Shown piece after piece: positions 859 through 11,496 of a stretch of 40,411 bases of DNA. The notes beneath the pieces were generated by a model that was given only the letters and a program-made list of their open reading frames with translations, was not told where the DNA came from and searched no databases. Positions within the stretch are counted from its first letter, which is position 1. Every line of letters starts with the position of its first letter. Both the position numbers and the translations under genes were made by a program. Source of the stretch: a bacterium (GTDB lineage: Bacteria > Patescibacteriota > CPR2 > UBA1875 > JAJYID01); assembly GCA_021794535.1 (NCBI GenBank), contig JAJYQQ010000007.1, positions 1 to 40,411 on the forward strand. Direction: 5' to 3'.

Positions 859-928
859 TTAAATCACGTCAATGTAAATTTTGAGTAAGATTACTCATAA
901 AAATAGAATCGCGAAAGCGATTCACTTT

Positions 929-976
<48 letters not shown>

Positions 977-1241
977 AACATGCAAGTCGAATGCCGCACC
1001 TTTTAGCCCCATTTTCAAATCAGTGGATTTGAAGGCTAAAAGGTGCGGCATGGCGAACGGGTGAGTAATACATTGGTATCTGTCCTTCTCTCAGGGATAA
1101 CCCATCGAAAGGTGGGATAATACCTGATAGTCCCTTCGGGGTAAAGTTCCGGCGGAGAAGGAGGAGCCTATGTCCTATCAGCTTGTTGGTGGGGTAATGG
1201 CCTACCAAGGCGACGACGGGTAGCTGGATCGAGAGGTTGAC

Positions 1242-1292
<51 letters not shown>

Positions 1293-1407
1293 TAGGAATA
1301 TTGCACAATGGGCGAAAGCCTGATGCAGCGACGCCGCATGAATGATGAAGGCCTTAGGGTCGTAAAGTTCTTTTAACCGGGAAGATTATGACGGTACCGG
1401 TTGAATA

Positions 1408-1454
<47 letters not shown>

Positions 1455-1620
1455 AAGCGTTATCCGGAATTATTGGGCGTAAAGAGTGTGTAGGCGGTAT
1501 TTTAAGTCAGATGTGAAATCTGCAGGCTTAACTTGCAATATGCATCCGAAACTAGAATACTTGAGTCTGGAAGAGGTAAGCGGAATTTCTGGTGTAGCAG
1601 TGAAATGCATAGATATCAGA

Positions 1621-1651
<31 letters not shown>

Positions 1652-1681
1652 GACAGTACTGACGCTGAGACACGAAAGCGT

Positions 1682-1715
<34 letters not shown>

Positions 1716-1816
1716 ACGCCGTAAACGATGCCTACTAGCTGTATGGGGTCTCGACCCCTTATGTAGCGAAGCTAACGCGTTAAGTAGGCCGCCTGGGGAG
1801 TACGATCGCAAGATTA

Positions 1817-1856
<40 letters not shown>

Positions 1857-1958
1857 ACGTGTGGTTTAATTCGACAATAAGCGAAGAACCTTACCGAGGC
1901 TTGACATCCCGCGAATCGACTGGAAACAGTCGAGTGCCCCTCATAGGGTACGATTCGC

Positions 1959-2060
1959 AATTTTCAAGTAATAATTTTCAATTTTCATTAAATTTTCATT
2001 GAGATATTGATTCATTGAAAATTCATTAGAAATTCTAAACTGAAAATTATAAATTGTAAT
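1959..2060 (+). repeat. AT-rich palindromic insertion in 16S V6 (h33 region)
   Basis: About 100 nt of almost pure A/T interrupts the V6 arm between CGATTCGCA and TCCTCGCACTC. ATAATTTTCA (1971-1980) is the exact reverse complement of TGAAAATTAT (2041-2050), so the block can fold on itself. Its words (TTTTCAATTTTCA, TCATTGAAAATT) match the style of intergenic repeats at 26100-26137 and 29505-29608. Confidence 0.75.
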
Positions 2061-2088
2061 CCTCGCACTCTGCGAGGGGAACGCGGTG

Positions 2089-2131
<43 letters not shown>

Positions 2132-2204
2132 CGGTTAAGTCCGTCAACGAGCGCAACCCTCATCCTGTGTTATATTTCTCACAGGAAACTGCCCTGGTCA
2201 ACAG

Positions 2205-2240
<36 letters not shown>

Positions 2241-2404
2241 CTTACGCCTCGGGCTACACACGCGTTACAATGGCCGGTACAATGGGCTGCGAACCCGCGA
2301 GGGGGAGCCAATCCCATCAAAACCGGTCCCAGTTCGGATTGAAGGCTGCAACTCGCCTTCATGAAGTCGGAATCGCTAGTAAACGTAGGTCAGCTATACT
2401 ACGT

Positions 2405-2443
<39 letters not shown>

Positions 2444-2496
2444 CCACGAAAGTTGGTAACATCCGAAGCCCCGGCCAAGTTCGCAGGAACTTGGGG

Positions 2497-2592
2497 CAAG
2501 TTGGTTAGTTTATAAAGTTTATAAGTTACTAAGTTTATTGGATTGAAATCAGTCCTTAGTAACTTAACAACTAATAACTTATCAACTGACCC
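2497..2592 (+). repeat. AT-rich palindromic insertion at the tip of 16S helix 44
   Basis: The h44 tip is extended by about 95 nt. AAGTTACTAAG (2523-2533) pairs perfectly with CTTAGTAACTT (2555-2565), and flanking ATAAGTT/AACTTAT words continue the arm imperfectly. The normal h44 base resumes with GGTGGGACCAGCGATTGGGG. Confidence 0.75.
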
Positions 2593-2692
2593 AAACCTGT
2601 TGGTTTGGCCCGGGTCTAAGGTGGGACCAGCGATTGGGGTGAAGTCGTAACAAGGTATCCGTAGCGGAAGCTGCGGATGGATCACCTCCTTT

Positions 2693-3008
2693 CTAGGGAG
2701 AATTTCCCATTCAATTGGGATTACTTCCAGGTCGAACCCCGCACATACGGGATCCTTATGCTAAATATAAAATGTATTCTTTGTTAGAAGAATCGTTCTG
2801 GAGAAGGCAAGGGATTCGGTATGTGCGGGGTAAATGTGATGGCGATTTTCTCTACTTTCCAGCATTCAAGTAAAACAAAAGATTGATTTTTGGGCATAAA
2901 GCGGTTAAAATACGATAGTTAAAACCGTTTTTTGTTTTACCGAAATTTCACATTTTCAGCCAAAGGCTGATCAGCCCTTGGCTGAGAATTGAAATCGGAA
3001 TTAGTTAA
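2693..3008 (+). other. 16S-tRNA spacer with processing stems and palindromes
   Basis: No gene is seen. The spacer holds a hairpin closed by CCCCGCACATAC (2737-2748) and GTATGTGCGGGG (2819-2830), then the 3' strand of the 16S processing stem (2845-2858). Next comes an imperfect hairpin built on AAGCGGTTAAAA and TTAAAACCGTTTTTT (about 2899-2935). Last are two adjacent small palindromes, CAGCCAAAGGCTG and TCAGCCCTTGGCTGA (2957-2985), of the same family as those in the tRNA-Ala remnants. Confidence 0.6.
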
Positions 3009-3085
<77 letters not shown>

Positions 3086-3204: not shown

Positions 3205-3423
3205 ATGGGATTTTTAATACGATTAATAGTTGGCCTCGGTTTGGCTGGAGTCGGCATCATTCTTCTTGGCAAAAGTTATAAGATAGTCCAAAAAATCGGT
3301 TACAATGACTGGGCGGAAGAACATCTCGGCGGCGGCGGGACATACCTACTGGTGAAAATAATTGGAATACTGGCCATCCTGCTTGCGGTTCTGCTGATTT
3401 TCGGCATTATAAAACCTTTTTAA
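3205..3423 (+). CDS. Small two-helix membrane protein
   Basis: 72 residues with a strong Shine-Dalgarno (AGGAGGT, about 7 bases before the ATG). Two hydrophobic helices are separated by a short polar loop (KIGYNDWAEEHLGGGGTYL), and the N-terminal helix is rich in glycine. No family is recognised, but two-helix miniproteins like this are common in CPR genomes. It sits between tRNA-Ile and tRNA-Ala inside the rRNA locus, so it may be carried on the rRNA transcript. The function is unknown. Confidence 0.75.
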   Translation: MGFLIRLIVGLGLAGVGIILLGKSYKIVQKIGYNDWAEEHLGGGGTYLLVKIIGILAILLAVLLIFGIIKPF

Positions 3424-3597: not shown

Positions 3598-3669
3598 GGG
3601 CCTGTAGCTTCCGCCAGAGGCGGACAAGCAGTTTCGTCCAGAGGACGATCAGCCTTTGGCTGAGGCTAG
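3598..3669 (+). pseudogene. 5' fragment of tRNA-Ala broken by palindromic insertions
   Basis: Removing two palindromic insertions leaves GGGCCTGTAGCT + CAGTT + GGCTAG, an exact match to the first 23 bases of the intact tRNA-Ala at 3972. The first insertion is built on TCCGCC-AGA-GGCGGA (from 3610). The second combines TCGTCC-AGA-GGACGA and TCAGCC-TTT-GGCTGA (3634-3663). The tRNA sequence stops after GGCTAG. Bases 3629-3669 are repeated exactly at 4067-4107. This is a tRNA remnant, not a functional gene. Confidence 0.8.
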
Positions 3670-3688
3670 TAACTTTAAAGAGAATCAA

Positions 3689-3937
3689 ATGTATCATGTA
3701 TATATTTTAGTAAGTGAGAGGAATGGTAAAAGTTATGTTGGATATACTTCAAAGAATGCAGAAGAGAGATTAAATGAACATAATTTAGGCAGTAATAAGT
3801 GGACATCTTTGAACAAACCTTTTAGTTTGGTATATTATGAAAGCTATGTTTGTAAAGAAGATGCCATAAGAAGGGAGAAATTCTTGAAAAGTGGTGTTGG
3901 TAAGAAACTTGTAAAGTTAATTAAAGAAAATTATTAA
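3689..3937 (+). CDS. GIY-YIG domain endonuclease (UPF0213/YhbQ-like)
   Basis: 82 residues forming essentially one GIY-YIG (URI) nuclease domain: YHVYILVS at residues 2-9, YVGYT at about 18-22, then the helix with conserved Arg (EERLNEHN), the glutamate region (YYESYVCKEDAIRREKFLKS), and a basic end. I start at the ATG at 3689; an upstream in-frame ATG at 3656 lies in the tRNA remnant and palindrome. Stand-alone proteins of this size are the UPF0213 type, which is small and lacks a separate DNA-binding domain. The gene lies between a tRNA-Ala fragment and an intact tRNA-Ala, enclosed by 41-nt direct repeats, which suggests mobility. Codon use is AT-rich. Confidence 0.88.
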   Translation: MYHVYILVSERNGKSYVGYTSKNAEERLNEHNLGSNKWTSLNKPFSLVYYESYVCKEDAIRREKFLKSGVGKKLVKLIKENY

Positions 3938-3955
3938 GGCAGAGACTCACTAGAG

Positions 3956-4060
3956 ATTAAGTGCTTTTGGAGGGCCTGTAGCTCAGTTGGCTAGAGCGCC
4001 TCGCTTGCACCGAGGAGGTCGCAGGTTCGACTCCTGTCAGGTCCACCAAAAGCACTTAAT
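3956..4060. repeat. 15-bp inverted repeat enclosing tRNA-Ala
   Basis: ATTAAGTGCTTTTGG (3956-3970) is the perfect reverse complement of CCAAAAGCACTTAAT (4046-4060). The right arm includes the tRNA CCA end. In RNA this would form a helix coaxial with the acceptor stem, probably for processing, or it may mark the ends of a moved cassette. Confidence 0.8.
3972..4048 (+). tRNA. tRNA-Ala (anticodon UGC)
   Basis: Intact cloverleaf. The acceptor stem is GGGCCTG with CAGGTCC (one G-U), the D-arm has TAGCTCAGTTGGCTAGAGC, the anticodon loop is CTTGCAC, the T-arm is GCAGG-TTCGACT-CCTGT, and CCA is encoded (4046-4048). Together with tRNA-Ile it forms the usual pair of an rRNA spacer. Confidence 0.97.
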
Positions 4061-4061
4061 T

Positions 4062-4161
4062 TAGCTCAGTTTCGTCCAGAGGACGATCAGCCTTTGGCTG
4101 AGGCTAGAGCGCCTCGTTTGCACCGAGGAGGTCAGGAGTTCGAATCCCCTGGGGTCCACCA
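4062..4161 (+). pseudogene. Second tRNA-Ala-like sequence with a palindrome in the D-loop and no 5' acceptor strand
   Basis: From TAGCTCAGTT it follows tRNA-Ala through the D-arm, an anticodon arm with loop TTTGCAC, a variable loop and T-arm (AGGAG-TTCGAAT-CCCCT, one mismatch) to GGGGTCCACCA. About 30 nt (two adjacent palindromes) are inserted in the D-loop. The bases before TAGC (ACTTAATT) do not pair with GGGGTCC, so no acceptor stem forms locally. The 5' strand of the remnant at 3598 (GGGCCTG) could pair at six of seven positions. Probably non-functional. Confidence 0.75.
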
Positions 4162-4200
4162 AAGCAAAGCCCCCATTGAAAGATGGGGACTTTGCTTTGG
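4159..4200 (+). terminator. Strong hairpin starting at the CCA of the tRNA-like sequence
   Basis: CCAAAGCAAAG (4159-4169) pairs with CTTTGCTTTGG (4190-4200) and CCCCAT with ATGGGG inside. About 17 bp with one mismatch. There is no U-run, so it may be a processing signal rather than a classical terminator. Confidence 0.6.
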
Positions 4201-4246
4201 TGATGGTTTCAAATGCCGGTTTCATAAGAGAAGCCGGATTAAAAAA

Positions 4247-5745: not shown

Positions 5746-6076
5746 CCTTAAGTGTATGTATATTGTGATGATGGGTAAACGAATTATTGCAATTCAAATC
5801 GAACGAAAAATCCAGTTGATGATTACTGGTTAAAAAAAATCATTAAGTCAAGTAAGAGCATATGGTGGATGCCTTGGGATTTCAGGCCGATGAAGGACGT
5901 AGTAAACTGCGATAAGCTTCGGGGAAGTGTTAAACAACTTTTGATCCGGAGATTTCCGAATGGGGCAACCCGGCTCGGGTTATGCCGAGTCACTCTCATC
6001 TGAATACATAGGACGAGCAGAGGGCACGCGGAGAACTGAAACATCTTAGTACCCGCAGGAAAAGACATCAACCGAT

Positions 6077-6107
<31 letters not shown>

Positions 6108-6448
6108 AAGCCAAAACTTTTTATACGTGATAGCTTATGGGCGTTGTATAAAGAGTGTTGTGAGGTAGACATACTCCTTTTGGAGACTAAGCTCGGGATT
6201 TGGACAGATTCAAGATTCGTCTTGGAAATGTCTAATTCCGAAATTAGGACCAAAGACCATAATCTTTGGGTAAGGTAAGAAAATTTGAGCTTTAATGGAA
6301 TGTGCCTGGAAAGGCCGACCATAGAGGGTGATAGTCCCGTACATGAAAAAACTCTAGTCCTTATATGTTTATTCTCTAGTACTACGGAGCCCGTGAAACT
6401 CTGTAGGAATCTGGGTGGACCACCATCCAAGGCTAAATACCTGAAATC

Positions 6449-6493
<45 letters not shown>

Positions 6494-6563
6494 TGTTAGG
6501 GGAGTGAAATAGAATCTGAAACCGTATGCTTACAGACGGTCGGAGCCGATACTTTGTATCGGG

Positions 6564-6672
6564 AATGTCTAATTTCCAATTAGCAATTTCCAGTCAATGA
6601 ATAAATGTCTAATTTCCAATTTTGGAATTTAAAGCATTAGGATTTGATTGGACATTAGAAATTGGTCATTGG
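6564..6672 (+). repeat. AT-rich expansion of 23S helix 25
   Basis: About 110 nt inserted between CGATACTTTGTATCGGG and CCGATACAGAGTGTCGG. The 18-base word AATGTCTAATTTCCAATT occurs twice (6564-6581 and 6604-6621), and an inverted form (GGACATTAGAAATTGG) closes the arm. Confidence 0.75.
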
Positions 6673-7339
6673 TAATTCCGATACAGAGTGTCGGTGACGG
6701 CGTGCCTTTTGTAGAATGAGCCAACGAGTTACCCCGCACTTTTTGTCTAAGCCGTTCCGCGGTGGAGGCGAAGGGAAACCGAGTGTTAATAGCGCGATTT
6801 TAAAAGTGCTGGGTAGACCCGAAACCGGGTGACCTATCCATGGGCAGGCTGAAGCGGCGTTAAACCGTCGTGGAGGGCCGAACCCACTTACGTTGCAATG
6901 TGAGGGGATGACCTGTGGATAGCGGAGAAATTCCAATCGAACCCGGAAATAGCTGGTTCTCTCCGAAATAGCTTTAGGGCTAGCGTCATAAATTCGCTTT
7001 TGGAGGTAGAGCACTGACTGGGCTAGGGGGCATATAGCTTACCAAACCCAAATAAACTCCGAATTCCGAAAGTTTTATTATGGCAGTCAGAACGTGGGGG
7101 CTAAGCTCCACGCTCGAAAGGGAAACAGCCCAGATCGCCATCTAAGGTCCCTAAGTCTATGCTAAGTGGAAAAGGATGTGAGATCGCATAAACAACCAGG
7201 AGGTTGGCTTAGAAGCAGCCATGCCTTTAAAGAGTGCGTAACAGCTCACTGGTCTAATGCGATTTTGCGCCGAAGATATAACGGGGCTAAGCATAGCACC
7301 GAAGATGCGAGTTCGCCGTAGGCGAACACAGAGTAACTA

Positions 7340-7424
7340 AAGAACCAAGGAACGGAAGAACAAAAAGACAAATTCATTTGTTTTAAGTTTTTCAGTTCTT
7401 ATGTTCATCTGTTATTTTGTGCTC
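7340..7424 (+). repeat. AT-rich expansion of 23S near helix 45
   Basis: About 80 extra nt between GCACCGAAGATGCG and GGTAGGAGAGCGTTC, made of AGAACAAAAAGACAAATT and imperfect complements (TTCAGTTCTTATGTTC). No ORF is supported. Confidence 0.6.
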
Positions 7425-7711
7425 GTCTATGGCGAGCGGTAGGAGAGCGTTCCATACTGCAGTGAAGCTGAACTGGAAAGTTTGGTGGAGTGTATGGAAG
7501 TGAGAATGTTGGCATGAGTAACCAAAATCCCTGTGAAAAACAGGGACACCGTAAACCCAAGGTTTCCTGGGCAACGATAATCGTCCCAGGGTTAGTCGGT
7601 CCTAAGCCGAGGCCGAAAGGCGTAGGCGATGGACAACAGGTTGATATTCCTGTACTGCTTATTTTGTTCCCACAAGTGACGCAGGATGGTAGCCGGAGCA
7701 TTTTATGGCTA

Positions 7712-7862
7712 TAGGTGTCTAAGTGTCTAGGTGCTTCGCTTTTGTTTCGCAAGTGAAAAGTTAAAAATGCAAAGTGAAAAGTTGTCGTATTCTTCGGATG
7801 ATTTATAATCGTCGCGAAGCGACTCATAAACTTTCAACTTTTAAATTTGAACTTTAAATTAT
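7712..7862 (+). repeat. AT-rich expansion of 23S domain III (about H58/59)
   Basis: An extra arm carrying AAGTGAAAAGTT repeated (7750-7788) and its complement AACTTTCAACTTTTAAATT (about 7829-7847) in a region that is compact in E. coli. Confidence 0.55.
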
Positions 7863-8340
7863 TTGCGACGCGTAAGCGGAGCATTGAAGCACGAATGAAA
7901 TCTCCGTAAAACGAGAAATTCCGGTAAGCCAAACTGACTAGAAAAGCTTGTGATTAATAGAGATAAGCAACCGTACCGAAAACCAACACAGGTGGGTGGG
8001 TAGAGAATACCAAGGTGCTCGGGAGAACCCTCGTTAAGGAACTCGGCAAAACAGCGGGCGTAACTTCGGGATAAGCCCTGCCTGGGTGTGCCGCTTTGTT
8101 CCTGAGAACGAAATGCATAAAAACAAAAAGTTGAGAAAAGAAGTGAAGACAAGAAACTCGGGAGCATAGCGGCACATCTAGGCCGCAGCGAATGAGTCCA
8201 GGCGACTGTTTATCAAAAACACAGGTCTCTGCTAAATCGTAAGATGAAGTATAGGGGCTGACGCCTGCCCAGTGCTGGAAGGTTAAGTGGATGGGTGCAA
8301 GCTCTGAAATGAAGCCCCAGTAAACGGCGGCCGTAACTAT

Positions 8341-9056
8341 AAAACGGACCATTGTAGTTACGTAAAAAAATCTAACTAAATGCTGGAAAACCCGCTTTGT
8401 TATGGCAGTACTCACCTGTTTTTTTACAGGAAGTGACAATCTGCTTGTAATAATCTTCAAAAAGATTGGCGGACAATCAGCAGGAAAGACTTCTATGAAG
8501 AAAAAAATACCCCCAAAAATTGGTTATTATCTGGCAGGATTTGCAGATGGCGAAGGAAGCTTCAATGTTTCCTTTAGGCCAAGGCCGGATTATAAACACA
8601 GATGGAAAGTATCAGCTTGCTTCAATGTTTCCCAAAAAGATACGGTAATTCTAGCGCTTTATAAAAGATGGCTGGGTTGCGGAACTTTAAGAGGAAGACA
8701 AGATGGAGTGTGGTACTACGAAGTAAATAACTTAAATGCTATTTGCGAAAATGTAATCCCATTTTTTAAAGAATTCGGCTTTTTATCAGCAAAGAAAAAA
8801 AGAGATTTTGCCAAATTCCAACAGATTGTGGATATTATTGTAAGCGGTGAGCATTTGAAAAAAGATGGCGCGCAGAAAATTCTGGAAATCAGAAAAGATA
8901 TGAATGATGGAGGCAAAAGGAAATACTCTCGCAGCCAAATAGAAGAATCCTCAGAGACTATACGTTAGATTCGGATATTACCGGAAAGATATAGTCCGAT
9001 CTCTATGGCAACATAGAGCCCAGATGGGAAATCTCGAAAGAGATTAACAGCAAATG
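8341..9056 (+). ncRNA. Group I intron in 23S after U1917 (helix 69), with a LAGLIDADG gene
   Basis: Exons read GGCCGTAACTAT | AACGGTCCTAAGG, so the intron sits after the position equivalent to E. coli U1917. The internal guide GTAGTTAC (8354-8361) pairs with the 5' exon GTAACTAT, leaving the U-G wobble at the splice site, and the intron ends in G (9056). Core elements follow consensus: P AAATGCTGGAAAA (8378-8390), Q AATCAGCAGG (8475-8484), R TCAGAGACTA (8951-8960), S AAGATATAGTCC (8986-8997). The endonuclease gene lies between Q and R. The length is 716 nt. From memory, a group I intron at L1917 is known in Coxiella. Confidence 0.93.
8495..8968 (+). CDS. LAGLIDADG homing endonuclease of the L1917 intron
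   Basis: 157 residues with one LAGLIDADG motif (YYLAGFADGEGSF, residues 11-23; catalytic-type acid D18), so it should act as a homodimer like I-CreI. The ATG at 8495 follows AGGAAAG (8482-8488), which overlaps the ribozyme Q strand. A longer reading from 8402 would run through the P and Q elements. The last codons (SSETIR and stop) overlap the R element. The expected target is the intronless 23S sequence around TAACTATAACGGTCC, close to the I-CeuI recognition region, but specificity is inferred only from location. Confidence 0.93.
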   Translation: MKKKIPPKIGYYLAGFADGEGSFNVSFRPRPDYKHRWKVSACFNVSQKDTVILALYKRWLGCGTLRGRQDGVWYYEVNNLNAICENVIPFFKEFGFLSAKKKRDFAKFQQIVDIIVSGEHLKKDGAQKILEIRKDMNDGGKRKYSRSQIEESSETIR

Positions 9057-9109
<53 letters not shown>

Positions 9110-9351
9110 TGGCGGAACGGTCTGGACACTGTCTCAACGAGGGACCCGGTGAAATTGCAATAGCGGTAAAGATGCCGTTTACCCGCGACAAGACGGAAAG
9201 ACCCCGTGGAGCTTTACTACAGCTTGGCATTGGATTAGGGTCTTGCATGTGTAGGATAGGTGGGAGACTTTGAAGCTCGGACGCTAGTTCGGGTGGAGTC
9301 ATCCTTGAAATACCACCCTTGTAAGGTTTTGATTCTAACCGACGCCACAAA

Positions 9352-9530
9352 TTGGATACAATTTGGGGAAATTTTAAGCACTAAATCCGAAATACTAAAC
9401 AAATTCAAAATTCAAAAATTTCAAACAAAAAAAGAAATTAGAATATTTGAATTTAAATATTAGATATTGTTTAGGGTTTCGATATTAGAATTTAGGATTT
9501 GACCCAGAAATTGTAAACAATTTCTGGCGC
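9352..9530 (+). repeat. AT-rich expansion of 23S helix 79
   Basis: About 140 extra nt lie between the GATTCTAACC segment and the CGGAACAGTGTCTGGTGGG block. It contains TTCAAAATTCAAAAATTTC-like words, then a perfect hairpin CCAGAAATTG / CAATTTCTGG (9504-9527). The style is the same as the intergenic AT-rich repeats. Confidence 0.7.
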
Positions 9531-9546
9531 CGGAACAGTGTCTGGT

Positions 9547-9579
<33 letters not shown>

Positions 9580-9799
9580 AGTAACGGAGGCGTTCAAAGG
9601 TGGGCTAGGTCTGGATGGAAATCAGACTGATAGTGCAAACGCATAAGCCCGCTTGACTGCAAGACTTACAAGTCGCGCAGAGACGAAAGTCGGAGTTAGT
9701 GATCTTTTGTGTGCACGTGGGTGCCACATTGCTTAACGGACAAAAGCTACCCCGGGGATAACAGGCTTATAGGATCCAAGAGTCCACATCGACGATCCT

Positions 9800-9836
<37 letters not shown>

Positions 9837-9870
9837 GTGAAGCAGCTCCCAAGGGTTTGGCTGTTCGCCA

Positions 9871-9903
<33 letters not shown>

Positions 9904-10690
9904 AAACTACATTGCGTTCTATCACAGTAATGTGATAAAATAAATTTGGCTCATATCGGTGAAACCCTCCTTGTTCATCCGAACGAACAAAAGGGCAATG
10001 CCGAGGGAAGACGAATTTTATGCAAAAAGAACTTCTTAGTTATATTGCCGGTTTTCTTGATGGAGATGGCTGTGTCATGGCGCAGCTTGTTCATCGCAAG
10101 GATTATCGGCTGGGATACCAAATACGGCTTAGCATTGTTTTTTATCAGAAGGAACAGAATGTTCAATTTCTGGAATGGTTAAAAACGAAGCTAGTTTATG
10201 GGTATATCAGAAGAAGAAATGATGGTATGGCAGAGTATACAATTGTTGGAGCGGATTATACGGCGAAAATACTAAAAAAATTACTTCCATACCTCAGACT
10301 AAAAAGAAAACTTGCGGAAATCGTTTTGGAAATATCCAAAATGCCCAAGAAAATAACACCCGAAGATCTTCTAAAGTATTCTGAGCTGGTCGATTTGACA
10401 GCGAAATATACTTATTCAAAGAAAAGAACGAATACAAAAAGTGTTGTAGAGGATTACTTTAAGAAGCATAAAATTTTGTCCCCGTAACGACTGATTCCTG
10501 GAATTTTTTCAGTAACTAAGGATGAGATAGTGTGTTCCTATCCTAACTAGGATATAAATTATAACCATTATCATACGCCAACGCCTACTCTTCGAAACAT
10601 TCGGAGGTATGAGGATGAAGGTATAGTCTATGCCGCAGGAAACTGCGGGTAAAATCTCGAGAGAAAAGCTGTTCTCTCAAGACAATCATG
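9904..10690 (+). ncRNA. Group I intron in 23S after U2593, with an I-CreI-like gene
   Basis: Exons read GGGTTCAGAACGT | CGTGAGACAGTTCGG, the site of the Chlamydomonas reinhardtii chloroplast LSU intron (E. coli 2593). The guide GCGTTCT (9914-9920) pairs with exon AGAACGT, giving U-G at the splice site, and the last base is G. Q is AATGCCGAGG (9997-10006), R is TAACGACTG (10485-10493) and S is AAGGTATAGTC (10618-10628); R GACTG and S TAGTC pair. The P element is less clear. The length is 787 nt. Confidence 0.9.
10020..10487 (+). CDS. I-CreI-like LAGLIDADG homing endonuclease of the L2593 intron
   Basis: 155 residues, collinear with I-CreI over nearly the whole length (163 aa in I-CreI, from memory). 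The motif SYIAGFLDGDGCVMAQ carries D14, equivalent to I-CreI D20. Residues equivalent to Q26, Y33, Q38, Q47, R68, R70 and K98 appear retained, while K28 and Q44 positions are Val. Retained contacts and the same insertion site suggest the same 23S target (AACGTCGTGAGACAG). GAGGGA (10003-10008), overlapping the Q strand, serves as Shine-Dalgarno, and the TAA stop (10485-10487) lies in R. Confidence 0.96.
   Translation: MQKELLSYIAGFLDGDGCVMAQLVHRKDYRLGYQIRLSIVFYQKEQNVQFLEWLKTKLVYGYIRRRNDGMAEYTIVGADYTAKILKKLLPYLRLKRKLAEIVLEISKMPKKITPEDLLKYSELVDLTAKYTYSKKRTNTKSVVEDYFKKHKILSP

Positions 10691-11167: not shown

Positions 11168-11496
<329 letters not shown>

Follow-up and report, generated by a model that had tools for sequence, protein, structure and literature searches.

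The window examined here is a DNA stretch of 40,411 nucleotides (contig JAJYQQ010000007.1 of assembly GCA_021794535.1), which holds an rRNA operon of an uncultured bacterium of the Patescibacteria (CPR). The features of this operon are listed in the table below. Both 16S (1767 nt) and 23S (4108 nt) genes are clearly longer than the bacterial models, i.e., they carry inserts, as is usual in CPR. Two LAGLIDADG endonuclease ORFs (PF00961) were also found and, together with a GIY-YIG gene located downstream of tRNA-Ile, this single operon holds three homing-type nucleases.

Features of the rRNA operon and of the disrupted tRNA-Ala locus (positions in the window)
Position	Strand	Feature	Details
926-2692		16S rRNA	
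2956-2985		Palindrome pair	TCAGCCAAAGGCTGA-TCAGCCCTTGGCTGA, just upstream of tRNA-Ile
3009-3085	+	tRNA-Ile(GAT)	Upstream neighbor of the site in all empty-site relatives read
3205-3423		Small ORF	72 aa, membrane-like by its composition, no Pfam match; kept between tRNA-Ile and tRNA-Ala in several genera and families
3598-3669	+	5' piece of resident tRNA-Ala	
3598-3609	+	5' end of the disrupted tRNA-Ala	Acceptor strand and start of D-stem (GGGCCTGTAGCT); at the position of the unbroken tRNA-Ala of congeners
3610-3628	+	Extra palindrome plus CAAG	TCCGCCAGAGGCGGA (3610-3624), inserted between TAGCT and CAG of the 5' piece
3629-3669	+	41-nt repeat, first copy	CAGTT, TCGTCCAGAGGACGA (3634-3648), TCAGCCTTTGGCTGA (3649-3663), GGCTAG
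3689-3937	+	GIY-YIG endonuclease gene	82 aa, ATG 3689, stop 3935-3937; catalytic domain only
3956-3978	+	Left arm of inverted repeat	91% complementary; extends the acceptor stem of the intact tRNA
3972-4048	+	Intact tRNA-Ala(TGC)	Replacement copy
4038-4060	+	Right arm of inverted repeat	Around the intact tRNA
4062-4161	+	3' piece of resident tRNA-Ala	TAGCTCAGTT, palindromes 4072-4086 and 4087-4101, then GGCTAG to CCA
4067-4107	+	41-nt repeat, second copy	
4157-4202	+	Hairpin	Terminator-like core, directly after the 3' piece
5846-9953		23S rRNA	
8402-8968		LAGLIDADG ORF	Inside the 23S gene
10020-10487		LAGLIDADG ORF	Between 23S and 5S
11272-11388		5S rRNA	

The resident tRNA-Ala(TGC) of this operon is split into two pieces which share an identical 41-nt segment, with no other copy in the window and 0 expected from shuffled sequences. 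This segment is D-arm sequence interrupted at CAGTT^GG by two perfect 15-nt palindromes. ARAGORN and Rfam searches detected one strong tRNA-Ala, the intact copy (69.7 bits), and a poor one at about 4087-4160 (33.4 bits), whereas the 5' piece was reported by neither. The acceptor strand of the 5' piece (GGGCCTG) can pair with that of the 3' piece (GGGGTCC) at 6 of 7 positions, two of which are G-U. Thus, the original prediction of a broken tRNA-Ala pair enclosing a GIY-YIG gene and an intact tRNA-Ala is confirmed, with two minor corrections: the broken tRNA continues a few nucleotides past the palindromes on both sides, and the 5' acceptor GGGCCTG equals that of the intact copy rather than the GGGCCCT of the congeners.

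To determine which copy is the resident, we compared this locus with two congeners (G001 and G002; loci L017 and L018), in which the same order of tRNA-Ile, small ORF, and tRNA-Ala holds one unbroken tRNA-Ala. With the palindromes set aside, the 3' piece equals that gene at 69 of 70 positions, whereas the intact copy matches it at only 65 of 77, with differences in the acceptor stem, T-arm, and anticodon loop. The best match to the intact copy outside this genome is the tRNA-Ala of G003, another genus of the same family (95%). So an uninterrupted gene was split and a different tRNA-Ala came in. In the 0.73 Mb of this genome that was analyzed, the intact copy is the only good tRNA-Ala(TGC), and GGC and CGC species lie elsewhere.

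The 82-aa protein matches the GIY-YIG profile PF01541 at 60.1 bits (cut-off 22.6) and consists of the catalytic domain only. The catalytic-type residues Y5, Y16, R27, H31, and E63 are invariant in 8 relatives. A confident structural model (pLDDT 95.5) has UPF0213 BH0048, Slx1, and, weakly, the I-TevI domain as its nearest solved folds. Selection keeps the protein (dN/dS 0.17 in L050/L072, the one pair of loci with measurable dS), yet broken copies occur, with an in-frame TAG in L049 and an early stop in L056. No match to a defence system was found using PADLOC, and the phage collection gave no match, with only short partial matches in viral contigs.

Interestingly, the arrangement is not unique to this locus. 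The three nearest nuclease homologs in 84,980 genomes are located at tRNA-Asp (L039), tRNA-Pro (L040, Howlettbacteria), and tRNA-Pro (L041, Curtissbacteria), each between a 5' tRNA piece with the same kind of palindrome in its D-loop and an intact tRNA of the same isotype. A profile search of 380 genomes of the phylum gave 47 places in 39 genomes (E <= 1e-20). Of the 48 loci including L041, 32 have a same-strand tRNA within 120 nt and none has an antisense one (chance per gene about 2.5%, P about 1e-39). We read about 26 of these loci as carrying a palindrome-containing remnant of the neighboring tRNA, at Ala, Asp, Pro, Asn, Ser, Thr, Val, Ile, and probably Gln genes. In 21 of them the remnant side exceeds shuffled flanks at p < 0.05; the alignment score alone misses the short remnants of L040, L055, and L069 and selected a neighboring tRNA-Cys for L085, so these four were read by eye, and the 5' match of L049 was borderline (p = 0.06). 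The intron-bearing tRNAs of L056 and L072 are called tRNA-Thr by ARAGORN, but we read them as tRNA-Asn from the 5' half shared with L050, L051, and L053. A further member (L173, at tRNA-Asp) was found in a later search.

Two layouts were observed, the majority having a 5' remnant, the nuclease, and an intact tRNA, and the mirror image having an intact tRNA, the nuclease, and a 3' remnant (L045, L052, and L062). Displaced 3' remnants downstream of the intact copy are present in L040, L041, L046, L061, L070, and L073, and by eye in L049; both remnants survive in the window and in L041, L046, L049, L061, and L073, among others. In L073, L061, and L049, the acceptor strands of the two remnants pair with each other (GGGTCGG with CCGACCC, 7/7; GCCGTCC with GGACGGC, 7/7; GGGCCGA with TCGGGCC, 6/7), i.e., they are one interrupted gene, while the intact tRNA in between has a different, self-consistent acceptor stem. 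Besides the window, syntenic empty sites were read for three elements: tRNA-Asp of G009 against G012 (same family), tRNA-Ala(GGC) of G158 against G178 (same genus), and tRNA-Asp of G390 against G349 (same genus). However, about half of the elements show no 3' remnant, and in these (e.g., G009 and G390) the intact copy may instead be the resident, with only a partial 5' duplicate beside it, which explains the layout equally well.

Some related GIY-YIG genes differ in their context. In L057, L058, L064, L074, L078, and L088, the gene lies downstream of an intact tRNA with repeated ACGTAA/ACGTGGC-like flanks and no clear remnant, and possibly targets the tRNA trailer. Others are located at different structured RNAs: directly before an RNase P RNA (L081), within what reads as an RNase P RNA (L067), and just after tmRNA (L075 and L080). 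The target range may be structured-RNA genes in general.

We then examined whether the target follows nuclease relatedness. On a tree of 25 nucleases with a clear target, isotype needs 10 changes, against a mean of 16.6 for shuffled labels (0 of 200 as low). All five Asn elements in the tree, from hosts in four families, form one side of a branch, as do the two Ser elements. In the clade of the window, the palindromes split AGTT^GG in the D-loop of Ala, Pro, and Asp genes, whereas in the Asn clade the same CAGTT^GGCT letters are split in the anticodon stem (or AATC^GG/GA in some), which points to a DNA motif and not a position in the tRNA. L173 differs in that its palindrome lies at TAGCT^CAATTGG.

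A GC-rich hairpin lies within 100 nt on the remnant side in 23 of 26 loci but in only 15 of 639 control stretches of the same loci (p = 1.7e-29). The units are 15-mers such as TCnnCC-nnn-GGnnGA, often in pairs, with different letters in different genomes. In the analyzed 0.73 Mb of the window's genome, similar pairs also occur at about four places away from tRNAs, and one pair lies beside tRNA-Ile, absent from congener L018 at the same place. Thus, the palindromes are not a tRNA-only unit and may be an independent repeat. Their constant presence at the break is the least explained part of this arrangement; we think that they mark or block the cut site.

The genome of the window shows three stages of such elements: the complete tRNA-Ala element; a second element at tRNA-Asn (L072, contig C32, about 1296-2060), whose intact copy also contains a group I intron (RF00028, 77.9 bits), so that one tRNA gene carries two kinds of insertion; and a 5' tRNA-Ser remnant split by two palindromes (L120, contig C33, 6879-6919), 68 nt upstream of an intact tRNA-Ser(GGA) in the region 6879-7072, with no nuclease gene, which looks like the tombstone of an older element. 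Gain, decay, and tombstone is what a homing life cycle predicts. A tRNA in the same genome (L139, contig C52, 9660-9766) has about 31 extra nt in the anticodon region and is called tRNA-Val with an intron by ARAGORN while another tRNA-Val(TAC) exists; by eye, the extra sequence is not palindromic.

A reasonable hypothesis, to which we assign a probability of roughly two-thirds, is that this is a minimal selfish element of about 0.4-0.5 kb, made of a GIY-YIG endonuclease gene and a complete tRNA gene, which disrupts a tRNA gene and survives by supplying a whole replacement. We infer that the nuclease cuts tRNA genes at a short motif (CAGTT^GG in this clade), that repair with the element-bearing copy as template carries the element across (homing), and that, because cutting an essential single-copy tRNA gene would be lethal, the element spreads only with its own rescue tRNA. 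The palindromes at the cut site would make the remnants uncuttable. However, cleavage has not been shown, the protein resembles UPF0213 and Slx1, which are not known as homing enzymes, and the intact tRNA keeps the CAGTTGG motif, so its protection must come from wider recognition (I-TevI-like enzymes may contact DNA far from the cut) or from something else, such as low or structure-dependent activity. In addition, the acceptor sequence of the newcomer in the 5' piece needs co-conversion or mutation. The nuclease is probably cotranscribed with the rRNA-tRNA operon, the intact tRNA being freed by normal processing. The original prediction that a cassette carrying a nuclease plus a replacement tRNA entered a tRNA already hit by a palindrome is supported in its main point, although the palindrome may have come either before the cassette or with it. 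A broader reading, about as likely as not, is a natural cleave-and-rescue drive: a phylum-wide family of 80-90 aa GIY-YIG nucleases, each clade specialized on a tRNA gene, that spread by destroying the resident gene and supplying their own, with a palindrome stamped into the cut site as an immunity mark, and thereby replace tRNA genes across CPR lineages.

Among alternative explanations, the one that deserves most attention, although we consider it unlikely, is that the palindromes themselves are the mobile unit. In this view the GIY-YIG protein is a structure-specific nuclease that handles hairpins, as RAYT transposases handle REP palindromes, and inserts them with or without its own gene into loops of structured-RNA genes, the second tRNA arising by repair-associated duplication. 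The palindrome at the break in nearly all elements, the similar dimers elsewhere in the genome, the similarity to UPF0213 and to Slx1, which cuts branched DNA, and the absence of an extra DNA-binding domain are consistent with this possibility. On the other hand, the nuclease gene is not bracketed by palindromes in most elements, as tRNA sequence continues past the palindrome up to the ORF; newcomer tRNAs with different acceptor stems (window, L049, L061, and L073) are not explained by local duplication; and the dispersed palindromes have no nuclease beside them.

It is less likely still that the nuclease has a cellular role, for example in tRNA-gene maintenance or RNA processing, with its place beside tRNA genes kept by selection and the remnants being debris of unrelated tRNA duplications. 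Purifying selection in the single measurable pair and the existence of UPF0213 relatives in ordinary bacteria would agree with such a role, but the gene is patchily distributed and absent from congeners, disrupted copies occur, and remnant, nuclease, and same-isotype tRNA occur together at many different isotypes. Plain tandem duplication with a chance insertion, or a metagenome assembly error, is very improbable: although the 41-nt repeat could mislead an assembler, empty sites exist, the two Ala copies are not recent duplicates, and the same layout recurs in independently assembled genomes with different tRNAs and different palindromes. Even less likely is a split tRNA joined in trans or an intron; the outer halves can indeed pair, but they overlap by the same 41 nt, an intact copy is present, and no group I or II intron was found in the window, the group I intron in the tRNA-Asn of this genome being a separate insertion.

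Homing endonucleases are usually thought to survive in essential genes by hiding in self-splicing introns or inteins. A whole replacement gene is a further solution, known so far, to our knowledge, only as partial protein-gene ends in fungal mitochondria; we found no report of endonuclease elements that carry a replacement tRNA in full-text searches that did not cover subscription papers and preprints. If true, our hypothesis would explain how tRNA genes get replaced in reduced genomes, give many testable target sites for very small nucleases, and warn that CPR tRNA annotation contains many remnants beside working copies.

The closest precedent is the mobile ORFs (mORFs) of fungal mitochondria (Allomyces and Glomus), which carry a replacement C-terminus of atp6, atp9, cox2, or nad3 (PMC3630166). 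There, a free-standing endonuclease gene (GIY-YIG in one of the Glomus cases) enters an essential gene and brings a foreign substitute, and the displaced resident end remains downstream. However, that substitute is the 3' end of a protein gene fused in frame, whereas here it is a complete tRNA gene, in bacteria, with palindromes at the break. SegB, a free-standing GIY-YIG homing endonuclease in the tRNA region of T-even phages, is also encoded next to tRNA genes and has been suggested to cut in tRNA-containing sequence and to move by recombination (PMC13096335, PMC2988022), but we found no description there of a broken resident tRNA plus a replacement tRNA. GIY-YIG-encoding insertion sequences in CPR rRNA genes (PMC11270868) belong to the same phylum and superfamily and are inserted in structured-RNA genes without intron similarity; that 2024 survey looked at rRNA genes, does not mention tRNA, describes no replacement gene, and judged the GIY-YIG insertions to lie outside spread by homing. 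Integrative elements with tyrosine recombinases also appear to target tRNA genes and to restore their function after insertion, but no integrase lies in the insert studied here, a whole tRNA is supplied rather than just an overlap, and the target is the D-arm or anticodon stem and not the probably more usual 3' end. Finally, synthetic Cleave and Rescue (toxin-antidote) gene drives (PMC7951863) follow the same logic of destroying an essential gene and supplying a rescue copy, to which the present element would be a natural counterpart; they are engineered and act in sexual animals, whereas here the rescue sits at the cut site and any spread would be by homing and gene transfer.
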